A stretch of 64,000 bases of DNA from Nocardioides mesophilus. Its GTDB lineage: Bacteria; Actinomycetota; Actinomycetes; Propionibacteriales; Nocardioidaceae. Shown here piece by piece: positions 1,606 through 60,590 of this stretch; the first letter of the stretch is position 1, and every line of letters begins with the position of its first letter. The notes below the pieces were generated by a model, which was not told where the DNA came from, made no database searches, and saw only the letters and a list, made by a program, of their open reading frames with translations. The translations under genes and the position numbers were made by a program. Location of the stretch: contig NZ_CP060713.1 of NCBI RefSeq assembly GCF_014395785.1, positions 3,252,501 to 3,316,500 on the forward strand, in the 5' to 3' direction.

Positions 1606-3732
<2,127 letters not shown>

Positions 3733-54376: not shown

Positions 54377-56944
54377 GTGTTCGTCGTCGCCCCGCTGGTG
54401 GCGGGCCACCGCTGCTGGACCGCCCACCGCCGACGCGGCCAGACCCACACCGGCTGGGCGTGGTTGGCGGTGGGCTGCCTCGTGTGGGCCGGGGGCTCGA
54501 TGGCGTTCGCCGCCTACGACCTCGGCGTCGGGTCGGCCCCGCCGCTGCCCTCGCCGGCGGACCTCGGCTACATCGGCTACGCGCTGCCGGTCATCATCGG
54601 CGCCTCCCGGTTCCCGGTCGCGCAGAGCGTGGTCTGGTCGCACTGGCGGCTCACCTGGGACGGTGGGGTGATCGCCTGCTCGCTGCTGCTGGCCAGCACC
54701 GTGTGGGTGCTCGAGCCGCTGGTCGAGGCGTCGTCGCTGAACGCCGCGACCGCCGTCGCGATGGCCTACCCCCTCGCGGACGTGGCGGTGGCGGCGGCCG
54801 TGCTGACCCGGTTGATGGTCGTGCCGCGGACCCAGTGGCGCGTGTGGGGGCCCCTGGGCGCCGGCTGGCTGGTGCTCACCCTCACCGACAGCATCTACGT
54901 GACCCGGACCTTCCACCACCAGTTCGCACCCGGCGGGCTGGTCGACCTCGGGTGGCTGCTCAGCTTCGCGCTGGTCGCCGTGGCCGCCGCGTCCCCGCCG
55001 GTGGAGTGCGAGGTCGCCGGGCCGGTCGCCGTCGCCGACCCGCCGTCGGTGCTCCAGCAGCTGCTTCCCTACGCCTCGCTCGCTCTCGCCGTCTCGGCGG
55101 TGGTCGCGAAGCCGGCGCTGACGCACGGCCCGTTGCTGTGGCTGGTGGTGCCGCTGGCCATCGCCGCGACCGGTCGGCAGTGCATCGTGGTCGCCGACCA
55201 CACCGCCTCGGCCAGGCACCTGTCCGAGGCCGTCGCACGACGTACCGCCGAGCTCGGCCACCGCGAGCAGTGGTGGCGCGAGGTGGTCCACAACCTGACC
55301 GACGTGGTCGTGGTCATCGACACCCGCGGCGCGATCGAGTACCGCAGCCCGTCCGCCGAGAGCACGCTCGGCTCCTGGCCGTCGGGCGTCACCACGGCCG
55401 AGGCGCTCGCCGCGCACGTGCACCCCGAGGACCTCGGGCCCGTGATGGGGGTCGTGGAGCCGGTGGTGCTCGGCCGTCGGCGTACCGGCTTCGTGGAGTG
55501 CCGCGTCGAGCTCTCCGACGGCAGCTGGGGCTGGTTCGAGGTGACCGTGGTCGGTCAGCTCGCCGAGCGGGCGCTGAAGGGCACCGTGCTCACCCTGCAC
55601 GACGTCAGCGAGCAGCGCCGGCTCACCGACCGGCTCACGCACGAGGCGTCGCACGACGCGCTGACCGGGCTGCCGAACCGGACCCTGCTGATGCGCCGCC
55701 TCGCCGAGGTGCTCGCCGAGGGGCAGCGGCGGCGCTCGGCGCTGCTGCTCATCGACCTCGACGACTTCAAGGTCATCAACGACCGGCACGGCCACGCGTC
55801 CGGCGACCTCGTCCTCGAGGTGATCGCCCGGCGGCTCCGCAGGGCGGTCCGGGCCGACGAGACCGTGGCCCGGCTCGGCGGCGACGAGTTCGCGCTGCTG
55901 ATGCGCGGGGACCGGGCCCAGGTGCAGGACCGCGCGCGGCGCCTGATCGAGCGGATCGGCAAGCCCGTTCAGGCCGGCGGGCGGACGTTCCTGGTGCGGG
56001 CCAGCATCGGCGCCGTGTTCGCCGGCGAGAGCGACGAGACGCCGCACTCGCTGCTCTCCCACGCCGACATCGCGCTCTACGAGGCGAAGGCCCGGGACAA
56101 GGGCGGCATGGTGCTCATCGACGGCGACGAGCGCGCCATGGCCGCCCAACAGGTGCACCTGCGCGAGCAGATCGCCCAACCCGACCTGGAGCAGTTCACC
56201 GTGGTGTACCAGCCGATCGTCGACCTGGCCGACCTGCGGGTCCGTGGCGTCGAGTGCCTGCTGCGGTGGAACCAGCCCGACATCGGGGCGGTGCCGCCGG
56301 ACCAGTTCATCCCGATGGCCGAGGCGGGTGGCTCGATCCAGGTGCTCGGCTGGCACGTCCTGCGCGAGGCCTGTGCGCAGCTCGCGCGGTGGAAGCAGGA
56401 GCGGCCCGACCACCGGATCGCCGTCGGCATCAACGTCTCCAGCCGCCAGCTCGACGAGCCGGGCTTCGCCGCGGCGGTGCTCCGGCTGATCGCGCAGCAC
56501 GACCTCGACCCCGAGCTGGTCGTCGTCGAGCTGACCGAGCAGTCGCTGGCGCTGGACTTCGAGACCGCGGTCGCGGTGGTCAAGGACCTCCGGGCCGGCG
56601 GCGTCTCGGTGGCGGTCGACGACTACGGCACCGGCTACTCCTCGCTGCGCTACCTGCACCGCTTCGACGCCGACGTCGTGAAGATCGACCGGAGCTTCAT
56701 CTCCCACCTCGTGGACAGCCCGCACACCCAGAAGATCGTCCGCTCGGTCATGCACATGGCCGACTCGCTGGACCTCCAGTCGATCGCCGAGGGGATCGAG
56801 ACCTGCGACCAGCTGGCGCTGGTGCGTGACCTCGGCTGCGCACTGGGCCAGGGCTACCTCTTCTCGCGGCCCGTCGCCGCGGAGGAGATCCTGCCGCTGA
56901 TCGGTCCCGACGGGGTGCTGGTGACGGCGCCGGCCCTCAGCTAG
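54377..56944 (+). CDS. membrane-anchored PAS-GGDEF-EAL cyclic-di-GMP enzyme
   Basis: From GTG 54377 the product has 855 residues, but the natural start is probably upstream in another frame (see 54081). An N-terminal set of about seven or eight membrane helices is followed by a PAS domain (about 305-410). The GGDEF domain has an intact GGDEF at 501-505. The EAL domain has the signature glutamate at 626, but EAL reads ECL. NVSSRQL, ELTEQSL, DDYGTGYSS, KIDRSF, AEGIE and GQGYLF are all kept, so both synthase and phosphodiesterase activities are possible. It probably tunes cyclic-di-GMP in response to a membrane or PAS signal. Confidence 0.85.
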   Translation: MFVVAPLVAGHRCWTAHRRRGQTHTGWAWLAVGCLVWAGGSMAFAAYDLGVGSAPPLPSPADLGYIGYALPVIIGASRFPVAQSVVWSHWRLTWDGGVIACSLLLASTVWVLEPLVEASSLNAATAVAMAYPLADVAVAAAVLTRLMVVPRTQWRVWGPLGAGWLVLTLTDSIYVTRTFHHQFAPGGLVDLGWLLSFALVAVAAASPPVECEVAGPVAVADPPSVLQQLLPYASLALAVSAVVAKPALTHGPLLWLVVPLAIAATGRQCIVVADHTASARHLSEAVARRTAELGHREQWWREVVHNLTDVVVVIDTRGAIEYRSPSAESTLGSWPSGVTTAEALAAHVHPEDLGPVMGVVEPVVLGRRRTGFVECRVELSDGSWGWFEVTVVGQLAERALKGTVLTLHDVSEQRRLTDRLTHEASHDALTGLPNRTLLMRRLAEVLAEGQRRRSALLLIDLDDFKVINDRHGHASGDLVLEVIARRLRRAVRADETVARLGGDEFALLMRGDRAQVQDRARRLIERIGKPVQAGGRTFLVRASIGAVFAGESDETPHSLLSHADIALYEAKARDKGGMVLIDGDERAMAAQQVHLREQIAQPDLEQFTVVYQPIVDLADLRVRGVECLLRWNQPDIGAVPPDQFIPMAEAGGSIQVLGWHVLREACAQLARWKQERPDHRIAVGINVSSRQLDEPGFAAAVLRLIAQHDLDPELVVVELTEQSLALDFETAVAVVKDLRAGGVSVAVDDYGTGYSSLRYLHRFDADVVKIDRSFISHLVDSPHTQKIVRSVMHMADSLDLQSIAEGIETCDQLALVRDLGCALGQGYLFSRPVAAEEILPLIGPDGVLVTAPALS

Positions 56945-56994
56945 CGGCCCGCGGACCGGTGACGGGCGCCCGCAGCGGGTGCCGCGGTCGGCAC

Positions 56995-57000
56995 TAGGGT
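56995..57000 (+). promoter_or_regulatory. -10 box of the MarR gene
   Basis: TAGGGT ends eight bases before ATG 57009. There is no Shine-Dalgarno sequence, so a leaderless mRNA is likely. Confidence 0.35.
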
Positions 57001-57008
57001 GTCCGAGC

Positions 57009-57503
57009 ATGGGGAGGAAACTGCCGTTCGACCCGATCGACGAGGCCGCCCGGCAGTGGGGTCTGCGCTGGGGTGCCGTCGAGCAGATGCACGCCGTCAC
57101 GTCACTGATGCGGGTCCAGCAGCTGGTGCTCGCCGAGCTCGACGAGCTGCTCCGTCCGCACGGGCTGACCTTCGCCCGCTACGAGGCGCTCGTGCTGCTC
57201 ACGTTCTCGCGGACCGGCGCGCTGCCGCTGGGCAAGATGGGGGAGCGGCTGCAGGTGCATGCCACCTCGGTGACCTCGATCGTCGACCGGCTGGAGACCG
57301 CCGGGCTCGTCGTACGCCGTCGCCACCCCGAGGACGGGCGCGCGGTGCTGGCAGAGATCACCGACGCCGGCCGTGAGCTGGTCGAGCGCGCCACCGCCGA
57401 CCTGGTCGCCGCCCGGTTCGCGCTGACCGCCCTGGACCCGGCCCAGCTGCACGAGCTCTCCCAGCTGCTGCGTCCGGTGCGCGAGCAGGCCGGCGACTTC
57501 TGA
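57009..57503 (+). CDS. MarR-family transcriptional regulator
   Basis: This 164-residue winged-helix regulator has an N-terminal dimer helix, the recognition region GERLQVHATSVTSIVDRLETAGLVVRR and the wing HPEDGRAVLAEITDAGREL. It is the gene just before icmA on the same strand. Regulators of this class often bind acyl-CoA or aromatic ligands. A 12-bp palindrome overlapping the icmA promoter is its most likely target. An in-frame ATG at 56979 is an alternative start. Confidence 0.88.
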   Translation: MGRKLPFDPIDEAARQWGLRWGAVEQMHAVTSLMRVQQLVLAELDELLRPHGLTFARYEALVLLTFSRTGALPLGKMGERLQVHATSVTSIVDRLETAGLVVRRRHPEDGRAVLAEITDAGRELVERATADLVAARFALTALDPAQLHELSQLLRPVREQAGDF

Positions 57504-57528
57504 CCCGCGCCTCCCGCGTCCCGGGATT

Positions 57529-57606
57529 ACCACGGGATGTCGGCGTTCTGATGCTTCCCGGGGGCTGTGGCCCATGGGGAGCGTCAAAAGTCCGACATCC
57601 CATGGT
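57529..57606. repeat. 78-nt rod-like inverted repeat
   Basis: 57529-57543 pairs with 57592-57606 (15 bp, one mismatch). A partly paired internal loop follows, and 57550-57559 pairs with 57576-57585 (10 bp with two G-U). A small GGGC/GCCC hairpin closes the top. It lies between marR and icmA, upstream of the icmA promoter. It could be the marR terminator or a separate structured element. Confidence 0.6.
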
Positions 57607-57638
57607 GTTCTGCGACCGCGCGGCTCGACGGGAGATAG

Positions 57639-57650
57639 TAGGACGTCCTA
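57639..57650. promoter_or_regulatory. operator palindrome at the icmA promoter
   Basis: TAGGACGTCCTA is a perfect 12-bp palindrome. It overlaps the start of the icmA -10 box at 57649 and fills part of the -35/-10 spacer, the classic place for a repressor. The MarR protein encoded upstream or a TetR-type protein could bind it. Confidence 0.5.
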
Positions 57651-57654
57651 GTAT
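57649..57654 (+). promoter_or_regulatory. -10 box of icmA
   Basis: TAGTAT ends six bases before the ATG at 57661, with no Shine-Dalgarno sequence. The transcript is probably leaderless. Confidence 0.45.
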
Positions 57655-57660
57655 CGGGGC

Positions 57661-59400
57661 ATGACCCAGGACGCCACACCCGCCGAGTCCGCACGCCGCC
57701 GCTGGGAGGACCGCTACGCCCGCTCCCTCGAGCAGGGGCGGGTCCGCGAGGCGGACTTCACCACCGTGTCGGGCCTGGAGGTCGAGCCGGCCTACGGCAC
57801 CGACGGGTCGGAGTGGCCCGGGGAGTTCCCGTTCACCCGCGGCCTCTACCCGACCGGCTACCGCGGTCGCGCCTGGACGATCCGCCAGTTCGCCGGCTTC
57901 GGCAACGCCCAGCAGACCAACGAGCGCTACAAGATGATCCTGGGTCGTGGCGGAGGCGGCCTGAGCGTGGCCTTCGACATGCCGACGCTGATGGGCCGCG
58001 ACAGCGACGACCCGAAGGCGCTCGGCGAGGTCGGCCACTGCGGGGTGGCGATCGACTCGACCGCCGACATGGAGACGCTCTTCGACGGCATCGACCTCGG
58101 CGACGTCACCACCTCGATGACGATCAGCGGCCCCGCCGTGCCCGTCTTCTGCATGATGATCGTCGCCGCCGAGCGAGCGGGCGTCGACACCGGCAAGCTC
58201 AACGGCACCCTGCAGACCGACATCTTCAAGGAGTACATCGCGCAGAAGGAGTGGCTCTTCGCACCCGAGCCGCACCTGCGCCTCATCGGTGACCTGATGG
58301 AGTACTGCGACGAGAGGATCCCGGCGTACAAGCCGCTCTCGGTCTCCGGCTACCACATCCGCGAGGCCGGCTCGACCGCCGCGCAGGAGCTCGCGTTCAC
58401 GCTCGCCGACGGGTTCGGCTACGTCGAGCTCGGCCTCTCGCGCGGCCTCGACGTCGACAGCTTCGCCCCCGGCCTGTCGTTCTTCTTCGACAGCCACGTG
58501 GACTTCTTCGAGGAGATCGCCAAGTTCCGCGCCGCCCGCCGGATCTGGGCGACCTGGCTGCGCGACGTCTACGGCGCCAAGACCGAGAAGGCGCAGTGGC
58601 TGCGCTTCCACACCCAGACCGCCGGCGTCTCGCTGACCGCGCAGCAGCCCTACAACAACGTGGTCCGCACCGGCGTCGAGGCGCTCGCCGCGGTCCTCGG
58701 CGGCACCAACTCGCTGCACACCAACGCGCTCGACGAGACGCTGGCGCTGCCCAGCGAGCAGGCCGCCGAGATCGCGCTGCGCACCCAGCAGGTGATCATG
58801 GAGGAGACCGGCGTCGTCAACGTCGCCGACCCGCTCGGCGGCTCCTGGTACGTCGAGGCGCTCACCGACAAGATCGAGGCCGAGGCCTACGCGATCTTCG
58901 ACAAGATCCTCGCGATGGGCGGGTCCACGATGACCTCGCGCGACACCGAGGCGCTGGCCGAGGCCGTGCGCCAGGGCACCGGGACACCCGACGGAGCCGT
59001 CTGGCCGATGACCCGGGGCATCCTGCGCGGCATCGAGGAGGGCTGGTTCATGTCGGAGATCGCCGAGGCCGCCTTCCAGTACCAGGTCGCCCTGGAGAAG
59101 GGTGAGAAGAAGATCGTCGGCGTCAACTGCCACGCCGAGTCCATCACCCACGACCTGGAGATCCTCCGGGTCTCGCACGAGGTCGAGGTCGATCAGGTCC
59201 GCGAGCTGGCCACCCGCAAGGCCGGACGCGACCAGGCCGCGGTCGACGAGGCCATCGCCCGGATGGTGGCGGCCTCGGGCAGCGACGACAACATGATCCC
59301 GGCGATGCTCGACGCCTGCCGCGCCGAGGCCACGCTCGGCGAGATCTGCGACGCGCTGCGCGCGGTCTGGGGCGAGTACCGCGAGCCGGCCAGATTCTGA
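57661..59400 (+). CDS. icmA: isobutyryl-CoA mutase large subunit
   Basis: This 579-residue catalytic subunit of a coenzyme-B12-dependent mutase has no C-terminal B12 domain. It must therefore pair with a separate small subunit (IcmB), which is not in this window. Substrate-specificity positions are Phe77 (AWTIRQFAGF) and Gln195 (EYIAQKEW). Methylmalonyl-CoA mutase has Tyr and Arg there, hydroxyisobutyryl-CoA mutase Ile and Gln, and isobutyryl-CoA mutase Phe and Gln. The sequence also agrees closely with Streptomyces IcmA as I remember it. It interconverts isobutyryl-CoA and n-butyryl-CoA, linking valine breakdown to butyryl-CoA. MarR control is likely. Confidence 0.88.
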   Translation: MTQDATPAESARRRWEDRYARSLEQGRVREADFTTVSGLEVEPAYGTDGSEWPGEFPFTRGLYPTGYRGRAWTIRQFAGFGNAQQTNERYKMILGRGGGGLSVAFDMPTLMGRDSDDPKALGEVGHCGVAIDSTADMETLFDGIDLGDVTTSMTISGPAVPVFCMMIVAAERAGVDTGKLNGTLQTDIFKEYIAQKEWLFAPEPHLRLIGDLMEYCDERIPAYKPLSVSGYHIREAGSTAAQELAFTLADGFGYVELGLSRGLDVDSFAPGLSFFFDSHVDFFEEIAKFRAARRIWATWLRDVYGAKTEKAQWLRFHTQTAGVSLTAQQPYNNVVRTGVEALAAVLGGTNSLHTNALDETLALPSEQAAEIALRTQQVIMEETGVVNVADPLGGSWYVEALTDKIEAEAYAIFDKILAMGGSTMTSRDTEALAEAVRQGTGTPDGAVWPMTRGILRGIEEGWFMSEIAEAAFQYQVALEKGEKKIVGVNCHAESITHDLEILRVSHEVEVDQVRELATRKAGRDQAAVDEAIARMVAASGSDDNMIPAMLDACRAEATLGEICDALRAVWGEYREPARF

Positions 59401-59432: not shown

Positions 59433-59467
59433 GTCTGCTCCGGCGAGGCGTCGCCGGACATGCAGAC
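59433..59467. terminator. hairpin between icmA and the DUF559 gene
   Basis: An inner 7-bp stem CCGGCGA/TCGCCGG (59440-59446 with 59451-59457) with a four-base loop is enclosed by GTCTG/CAGAC (59433-59437 with 59463-59467). It lies between two convergent genes and can serve both. Confidence 0.55.
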
Positions 59468-59486: not shown

Positions 59487-60383
59487 TCAGGCGGCGCTCT
59501 TCCTCGCCTCGTGCACCTTCGTAGGTCCGTCTACGAGCGCGACGAACGCCTCCAGGCACTCGCGCACGTAGTCGGGGTGGAACATCACGTCCTCCCAGGC
59601 GAACCTCAGGACCCTCCAGTCGAGCAGCACCAGCTTGGTGTAGCGGCGACAGTCCCTTCGGAGCGCGCCGCGGCGGCTGTGCCAGGAGTGCGACTCGGCC
59701 TCGACGACGAGCCGTCGTTCCACGTCCACGAGGTCGGGCCGTCCACGACCCTGCTTGTCCGCGATGACGACCTGCGGTCGCAGGTCGAGCCCTGGTACGT
59801 CGAGGCCGATCGCGCGGAGCACCGACTCGAACGGGTTGGCCGCCAGCGGCGAGGCGGCGTCGGCGATTCGCCGTGCTCGTCGGGCACCGCGCCCGCTCAT
59901 CCCCGCCGCGATGGCCCGGAGCTCGGCGGGCGTCACGCTGCCGTTCCTGAGCGCCGAGTCGGCGATCGTGAGCGCCTCGTCGAAGGGGAGGAGGCGCAGG
60001 CAGTCGACCAGGGTGCGGCGCCGAGAAGTGACCCACCCGTCGATGTCGCCGGGCGCGAGGTCTGCCCAGTGCAGGCAGACGTCACTGCCGTAGTGCGCAC
60101 GTCGACGACGGCTCCTCGGCACGGTGACGTCGGGGTGCGGCGGCGGCTGCTTGACCTGCCACCCCCAGTGCAGCGCGGCGCTGCGGTGCGACACCACACC
60201 GCACAGTCCGCCGGCGGCACGAAGAGCATCGTGCGCCACCGGCGCGGCGTACCGGCCACGCGAGAGCCGGACGATCTCACCCGCGGCGAGGGCCAGGTCC
60301 ACGTCAGCGCGCGAGGTCTCAGCGATGAGGTCCGCGCGCGAGGCGACGCCACCGAGCCGGACGAGATGGGAGGCAACGTTCAT
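59487..60383 (-). CDS. AbiEi-like HTH and DUF559 (Vsr-like nuclease) domain protein
   Basis: This 298-residue protein has an N-terminal winged-helix region of the AbiEi antitoxin type (SHLVRLGGVASRADLIAET, then LSRGRYAAP). A central part contains HPDVTVPRSRRR. The C-terminal DUF559-like domain has RPDLVD and VVEAESHSWHS, a PD-(D/E)xK-like pattern, followed by WRVLRFAWEDV. Such genes are numerous in actinobacteria; whether they act in defence, repair or mobility is unknown. No partner toxin gene is adjacent. It is flanked by short CGGACATGCA repeats. ATG 60383 gives the usual N-terminus. Confidence 0.75.
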   Translation of the reverse strand: MNVASHLVRLGGVASRADLIAETSRADVDLALAAGEIVRLSRGRYAAPVAHDALRAAGGLCGVVSHRSAALHWGWQVKQPPPHPDVTVPRSRRRRAHYGSDVCLHWADLAPGDIDGWVTSRRRTLVDCLRLLPFDEALTIADSALRNGSVTPAELRAIAAGMSGRGARRARRIADAASPLAANPFESVLRAIGLDVPGLDLRPQVVIADKQGRGRPDLVDVERRLVVEAESHSWHSRRGALRRDCRRYTKLVLLDWRVLRFAWEDVMFHPDYVRECLEAFVALVDGPTKVHEARKSAA

Positions 60384-60590
60384 GGCGGTCAGCCTGACGC
60401 GTTCGGGCGCCACGTGCGCGCGCTTGTCCACAGGGCCGCGGCGGCCGTCCACGCCGAGACGATGGGCCGGGCCCGGCGGGCGTCGTAACCGGACATGCAT
60501 TGGTGTCCCCCATGCGCCTGTGCCAGGCCTCGCCAGCGCACTGTTTGCATGTCCGTCTCCGACGCGCGGGCCCGCTGTCGTGCCGAGGGG
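60384..60590. other. intergenic gap with an inverted repeat
   Basis: This 207-base gap holds no gene I can support. It contains CGGACATGCA at 60490-60499 and its reverse complement at 60546-60555. Confidence 0.5.

Follow-up and report, generated by a model that had tools for sequence, protein, structure and literature searches.

The intergenic hairpin between a MarR-family regulator gene and a methylmalonyl-CoA-mutase-family gene of Nocardioides mesophilus is probably a solitary copy of a mobile palindromic repeat. On this reading the copy is non-autonomous and REP-like, derives from a full gene-carrying element and entered the gap after the marR stop codon in this lineage, and an AbiEi-nuclease protein would act on its ends. 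The hairpin belongs to a family dispersed through the genome, and its presence at this site is lineage-specific. Elsewhere in the same genome two inverted copies bracket a single gene, which encodes the AbiEi-nuclease protein, and this layout recurs across the class with ends that vary by lineage. From this association we infer that the protein moves the hairpins.

The hairpin was confirmed in the window, by which we mean the whole 64,000-nt stretch of DNA that was analysed. Its natural extent is 57525-57610, or 86 nt, which adds 4 nt at each end to the 57529-57606 of the preliminary description. The features at this site are as follows.

57009..57503, + strand: MarR-family regulator (Pfam MarR, 7.5e-13)
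57525..57610, no strand assigned: complete palindromic repeat copy, 86 nt, with two outer ends (L-L form; from copy comparison, a gap-free 86-column alignment and 22 places in the genome)
57525..57543, + strand: left outer arm, GATTACCACGGGATGTCGG flavour (arm comparison among copies; helix 1 of the pairing analysis)
57547..57565, + strand: left arm of the inner core hairpin, TCTGATGCTTCCCGGGGGC (arm comparison; helix 2 of the pairing analysis)
57570..57588, + strand: right arm of the inner core hairpin (arm comparison; helix 2 of the pairing analysis)
57592..57610, - strand: right outer arm, GAACACCATGGGATGTCGG flavour on the - strand, a sub-variant unlike the left arm (arm comparison; helix 1)
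57636..57654, no strand assigned: palindrome TAGTAGGACGTCCTAGTAT, between the repeat and the mutase gene and outside the repeat (GGACGTCCTA core kept in 6/6 congeners)
57661..59400, + strand: methylmalonyl-CoA-mutase-family gene, previously called icmA (TIGR00641, 660.9 bits against a cut-off of 303.8; Pfam MM_CoA_mutase)

The repeat copy follows the marR stop codon by 21 bp. The palindrome ends 6 nt upstream of the mutase ATG, and the hairpin sits upstream of the palindrome. Every part of the two-tier structure first described (a 15-bp outer stem with one mismatch, an internal loop, an inner stem and an apical hairpin) is present. When 57529-57606 was folded, as had been proposed, the + strand gave -55.0 kcal/mol (z -7.2) and the - strand -52.0 kcal/mol (z -8.7), and none of 200 shuffles equalled the fold on either strand. 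A terminator had been among the suggested functions. The U-tailed form is not supported, as there are no terminator-like sites in 56900-58200. No sigma-70-type promoter was found in that interval either. Rfam 15 gave seven matches in 57400-57760, all of them far below gathering scores with E values of 0.93 or worse.

To find further copies, we searched the genome (4,488,624 bases, one contig) with a 118-nt query, which returned 52 rows at E <= 10. Merging rows at E <= 0.003 placed the repeat at 22 distinct positions, the window copy included; the best other copies are 87-89% identical over 82-96 nt. When arms are compared from the centre, the copies follow a common plan in which a conserved core half, about TTTGATGCTTCCCATGGGC, is joined to an outer module. 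This module is of type L (GATTACCACGGGATGTCGG, GAACACCATGG... and variants) or type R (CTTCCCATGG, which nearly repeats the core). By our reading, the window copy and six others carry L on both sides, and the remaining 15 combine an L side with an R side. The repeat unit starts with GATTACC or GAACACC. Two side observations concern the surroundings of individual copies: one copy has a short direct duplication of CCTGATCTGACGAGCGCGAAGCGCGAGGCAG next to it (L012:2885-2970), and several similar GGTAC[AG]CCGGG...CCGATCC blocks follow another (L017:3140-3380).

Eleven two-sided copies from N. mesophilus, its congener G005 and the genome G028, each trimmed to 86 nt around its centre and with the two-sided own copy L027 omitted, align without gaps over 86 columns. 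Therefore, we took the window unit as 57525-57610. Across these 11 copies, 90.2% of cells are paired and 15 of 38 pairs have changed on both sides. None of 500 shuffles reached as high a pairing score, and slid versions of the alignment scored far lower. The family has a narrow range. Among 58 genomes, including that of N. mesophilus, matches occurred in N. mesophilus, in G005 and at one weak place in G028. A scan of GTDB contigs with the core pattern found nine stretches in two Nocardioidaceae MAGs, and also one Syntrophomonadaceae contig whose flanks are unlike the repeat family.

We compared the same spacer in six congeners (G001 to G006), in all of which the MarR and mutase genes adjoin. 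Four of them (G002, G003, G005 and G006) have a short space before the GGACGTCCTA-core palindrome, without a hairpin, and G004 has about 1.3 kb of other sequence before the palindrome, again without a hairpin. The spacer of G001 contains a hairpin of unrelated sequence. Within G001 this hairpin recurs at 20 distinct places (25 rows); the other genomes searched for it, G002, G003, G004 and G006, have no copy. Since five of the six spacers are hairpin-free and the sixth holds an unrelated family, the stem is not conserved with the marR-mutase pair. Lack of conservation in related spacers, which the preliminary description had named among its refuting observations, speaks against a function tied to this gene pair. 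A conserved marR-icmA regulatory RNA was likewise rejected, there being no Rfam match and no hairpin in five of six congeners. No target-site duplication was visible around the window copy, for which the congeners are too diverged to give a base-exact empty site, or by eye at five two-sided own copies, for which a close empty site for comparison is lacking.

The palindrome beside the hairpin is a separate matter. TAGTAGGACGTCCTAGTAT is likely an operator that overlaps a promoter, and it is perhaps bound by the MarR protein. It lies close to the mutase ATG in G001, G002 and G004 as well as in the window, and farther from it in G003, G005 and G006. The preliminary description placed the hairpin outside a leaderless mutase mRNA. 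This fits the window, but a leaderless start is not general because of the greater distance in those last three genomes.

A full element is present in the N. mesophilus genome at C1:2146727-2147975, about 1.25 kb long, and consists of a hairpin end, one gene and the same end inverted. The two inverted copies have their L ends outward and bracket one ORF on the - strand (L016:3134-4207), the N-terminal part of which matches AbiEi_4 at 4.5e-8. The ends of this element and the solitary copies have outer and core arms in common. The neighbouring genes read, from their translations, as a CoA-transferase and a monooxygenase. We compared this locus in N. mesophilus, G005, MAG TY_ISSM_2_bin.39, G004, G001 and G003, all of which could be judged; G002 and G006 could not be. 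In G005 and in TY_ISSM_2_bin.39 (L070), a homolog at the same locus is bracketed by the same kind of ends, outer ends outward, and the three proteins are 54-59% identical. In G004 the element is absent, and a 34-bp gap separates the matches. In G001 and G003 the locus holds a distant homolog, about 26-30% identical to the N. mesophilus protein, between different inverted hairpins.

Homologs of the AbiEi-nuclease gene are common. Of 98 related genomes, 76 carry one at E <= 1e-10; in a class-level sample of 295 genomes, 94 do so at E <= 1e-15. Both counts include N. mesophilus. We examined 73 homolog loci from 22 families for flanking repeats: 30 came from the relatives, 24 were new from the class sample and 19 were taken at about one per further family. 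The families f9, f16, f18, f35 and f40 had matches and were left out of this sample. A pair was scored when inverted repeats lay 700-1600 nt apart at E <= 1e-2, and under a strict rule they also had to flank the gene. An inverted pair was detected in 67 of the 73 loci, from 18 of the 22 families. It strictly flanked the gene in 63 loci, 54 of them at E <= 1e-6. Among the ten loci that failed the strict rule, four have a pair on contigs cut short (L093, L174, L175 and L201). At the thresholds used, no pair was detected in six: L101, which is on a short contig, and L182, L195, L196, L197 and L213.

Such pairs are rare in other DNA. Among 86 control stretches, ten had some inverted pair, one had a flanking pair and none had a flanking pair at E <= 1e-6. 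The controls were 31 tiles of the window and 36 tiles of the N. mesophilus genome placed around solitary copies, together with 19 loci of other genes from the relatives and N. mesophilus; they overlap mutually, the window tiles by half and the own-genome tiles pairwise. The single flanking control is L010a (27 nt, E 0.004). The pair in L011 passes E <= 1e-6, in two overlapping tiles, and fails the flanking rule.

The ends themselves vary in sequence by lineage. In 52 of the first 54 loci, those with a pair, the arms have a median length of 79 nt at 84% identity, and the outer spans are 1140-1455 bp. By our count, 43 of these 52 loci have self-complementary stretches in the arms, and nine have none at the threshold used. 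In the folds of many ends, an outer hairpin precedes a core hairpin. A GTAC tag common to the inner ends proved unconvincing: 31 of 104 ends have it, where 22% would be expected. An outer tag resembling GTTT[AC]C occurs at 41 of 104 ends, a count made without a control.

Dispersal of the ends is also not peculiar to N. mesophilus. We checked four families of ends, each of which occurs at 20-43 places (43 being a lower bound), and one of which has short paired derivatives. The G028 end is present at no fewer than 43 places in G028, is abundant in the congener G065 and is absent from G018, G034 and G074. The G034 end is present at 26 places in G034 and at none in G018, G028, G036 and G014. In G028, at least five inverted pairs lie less than 400 bp apart. 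The one small pair that was read out consists of an end, a spacer of about 90 nt and an inverted end, the layout expected for internal deletion derivatives. Separately, at G028:C1:736495-737581 (L192), two inverted units bracket an ORF that reads as a SAM-dependent methyltransferase and not as the nuclease gene.

The N-terminal region of the protein is consistently AbiEi-like, a domain of the winged-helix type. Among 20 homologs, all 20 match Pfam AbiEi_4 (E <= 1) and all 20 match PADLOC AbiEi (E <= 0.1). We aligned 32 rows, in which the N. mesophilus protein appears twice, L093 and L101 are absent because no protein was found, and the diverged window protein stands outside the count. Residues E205, P218, P220, Q223, D238, E249, D251, G252 and R276 are invariant, and K255 is kept in 30 of 32 rows. 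We read the resulting E...D...ExD...K pattern as a putative PD-(D/E)XK-type active site. Scores to nuclease families are weak, with DUF559 in 2/20 homologs and MTES_1575 in 1/20 at a best E of 0.05. A PDB profile search gave Bax1 as its sole match (E 0.38), and a single-sequence fold model of the MAG homolog L070 was too poor to use (pLDDT 38). Together, the conserved residues and the weak relatives suggest that the C-terminal region is a nuclease. In plasmids, phages and viral contigs, the repeat family had no match and the protein had no confirmed relative, and carriage by phage, plasmid or virus was rejected on these grounds.

We propose that the DNA-binding domain of the AbiEi-nuclease protein would recognise the hairpin ends, and that its putative nuclease domain would cut there or close by, perhaps while the ends are in cruciform or single-stranded form. 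Permissive gaps behind genes could then receive full elements as well as bare hairpins through repair or copying. It is unlikely, in our estimation, that the repeat is mobile through something else, either a transposase unrelated to this protein or slippage during replication together with gene conversion, with the AbiEi-nuclease gene as a passenger or as a gene that is itself targeted to hairpins. Such an account takes its strength from three points: a role of the nuclease in movement is what we infer, the G028 units also bracket the methyltransferase-like ORF, and the transposase search in the N. mesophilus genome covered the Y1 family. It is opposed by the pairing with the AbiEi-nuclease family in 67 of 73 loci and 18 of 22 families, which persists although the ends change. 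The Y1 result also counts against it. The Y1 transposase domain PF01797 had no match at E <= 1 in the N. mesophilus genome, and ten of 14 control genomes were positive. A RAYT-driven REP is rejected on this evidence, Y1 being the transposase family searched.

Where the copies sit bears on a second alternative. By heuristic gene calls, the 22 N. mesophilus copies comprise eight in tandem gaps, eight in convergent gaps, three in divergent gaps and three inside a called ORF, so that 19 of 22 lie outside ORFs. The 18 distinct G001 places examined divide into seven, seven, one and three in the same order, also by heuristic calls. Background gaps of at least 50 bp (72 in all) are 45 tandem, 12 convergent and 15 divergent. 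The preliminary description had offered a REP-like element among its possibilities, and this was right as to behaviour: the hairpin is a dispersed palindrome, mostly extragenic and often close behind stop codons. This preference also suits RNA 3'-end elements that serve the host, such as bidirectional terminators or stabilisers of mRNA, which selection would have multiplied and two of which would simply border the nuclease gene. The enrichment in convergent gaps (8/22 in N. mesophilus and 7/18 in G001 versus 12/72 in the background), the strong fold on both strands and the covariation of paired positions all agree with such elements. We nevertheless consider them very unlikely as the explanation. 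There is no U-tract, the hairpin is absent from the site in five of six congeners, the sequences are unrelated between species of one genus, and one gene family is bracketed far above the controls. Under the mobile-repeat reading, the inserted hairpin may still have secondary effects: it may mark or protect the 3' end of the marR RNA, with a possible side role in forming that end, and may serve as an insulator for the mutase promoter.

In a third alternative, the AbiEi-nuclease gene has the hairpins as its operators and terminators and the dispersed copies as its regulon. AbiEi antitoxins are autoregulatory, and this alternative is consistent with the AbiEi-type N-terminus in 20/20 homologs and the palindrome upstream of the gene, but the second copy downstream of the gene and the scarcity of solitary copies between divergent genes (3/22 in N. 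mesophilus and 1/18 in G001) leave it hardly any credibility.

N. mesophilus and G001 have hairpins of unrelated sequence at four orthologous sites: the marR-mutase spacer, the element locus, L017/L132 and L012/L136. This is a point against the mobile-repeat reading in its simple form, since independent random insertion does not predict these common sites well; they could reflect preferred landing sites (hot spots) or turnover of the sequence in place. The probability of three or more common sites was estimated at 0.002-0.02, a figure that is indicative only, given rough inputs (17 and 21 places, with 600-1500 sites assumed).

The window also encodes a possible relative of the nuclease. MTES_1575 genes in general show a weak association with repeats: the genome has seven matches, mostly far from repeat copies. 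One of these genes (L185) has a tandem array of a 32-nt unit on either side, in inverted orientation, at 1047-1200 and 2234-2453 (4.9 and 6.9 copies). Another (L183) has palindromic arrays on both sides, at 1465-1824 and 2883-3162, with periods of 132 nt and 50 nt. L184 has a weak inverted pair (E 0.001), and L186, L187, L188 and L189 have none at the E 0.001 threshold. The last of these, L189, is the window gene at 59487-60500 on the - strand, which has weak MTES_1575/DUF559/AbiEi similarity. A hairpin with CCGGACATGCA...TGCATGTCCG lies near the 5' end of this gene (60477-60568, fold z -2.1), and GGACATGCAGAC lies downstream of the gene at 59456-59467. Close to the 5' end of a related gene, in L187, is a similar palindrome, GGACATGCA/TGCATGTCC. 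The window gene and its hairpin are possibly a second, degenerate hairpin-nuclease pair.

On a broader scale, we see about an even chance that these elements are a class-wide, undescribed form of mobile DNA. In each single-gene element, an AbiEi-PD-(D/E)XK nuclease would recognise its own hairpin ends and would spread, along with bare hairpins, into the gaps behind genes. The hairpin sequence would diverge together with the enzyme, giving families private to each lineage and forming an analogue of the REPtron with a different enzyme. Where an enzyme is known for REP-like repeats, the tie is to Y1 transposases, and here it is to an AbiEi/nuclease-like protein across many actinobacterial families. 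Such proteins would be annotated as AbiEi antitoxins or as unknown nucleases. If the nuclease does move the hairpins, this would be a new mechanism of DNA mobility, and a common group of AbiEi-like genes would gain a function. It would also provide a source of intergenic hairpins in high-G+C genomes, where they may shape RNA 3' ends.

The recurring gene-plus-hairpins arrangement points to an apparently undescribed kind of small mobile element. No description of AbiEi/DUF559-type genes bracketed by hairpin repeats was recognised in the literature searched, which comprised titles and abstract openings, with most subscription journals and all preprints outside its range. Several known systems resemble it in part. 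MITEs are non-autonomous derivatives of DNA transposons, and here too short derivatives (the window copy and the small G028 pairs) carry the ends of a gene-carrying element. Unlike MITEs, these show no target-site duplication by eye and no known linked DDE transposase, Y1 being the family searched. The REP13E12 repeats of mycobacteria are an actinobacterial repeated element with a nuclease-type ORF. Taken as generally described, they share that kind of ORF with the present elements and differ in that their protein is of the HNH/DUF222 type. The AbiEi domain found at the N-terminus of 20/20 homologs is that of AbiEi, the antitoxin of the AbiE type IV toxin-antitoxin system. The present proteins differ from it in their nuclease-like C-terminal region, in being bracketed by hairpins and in having neighbours at the N. 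mesophilus locus that read as CoA-transferase and monooxygenase genes, not as a toxin gene.

By our reading, the residue pattern is similar to that of Vsr/DUF559-type PD-(D/E)XK nucleases, and a few members give weak DUF559/MTES_1575 scores. In the passages of PMC12907096 that treat them, these nucleases are discussed as mismatch-repair-like enzymes, and gene-flanking repeats are not mentioned there. REPtrons and TIRtrons, as defined in the relevant passages of PMC3733652, are REP or TIR repeats together with RAYT or TIRYT tyrosine transposases; the word Actinobacteria does not occur in the main text of that paper. According to those passages, a REP is a unit of 20-40 nt with a GTAG or CGTC tag at one end, whereas the unit here is 86 nt and lacks such a start tag. 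As in the REPtrons and TIRtrons described there, the palindromes are dispersed, extragenic and near gene 3' ends, and the enzyme gene is bracketed by repeats (PMC3733652). The copies likewise occur singly, in pairs and in groups, and some TIRs are double palindromes (PMC3733652). On the strength of these passages, the REPtron/TIRtron is the closest described system (PMC3733652), and the difference lies in the enzyme, which here is AbiEi-type and PD-(D/E)XK-like in place of an HUH/Y1 transposase.
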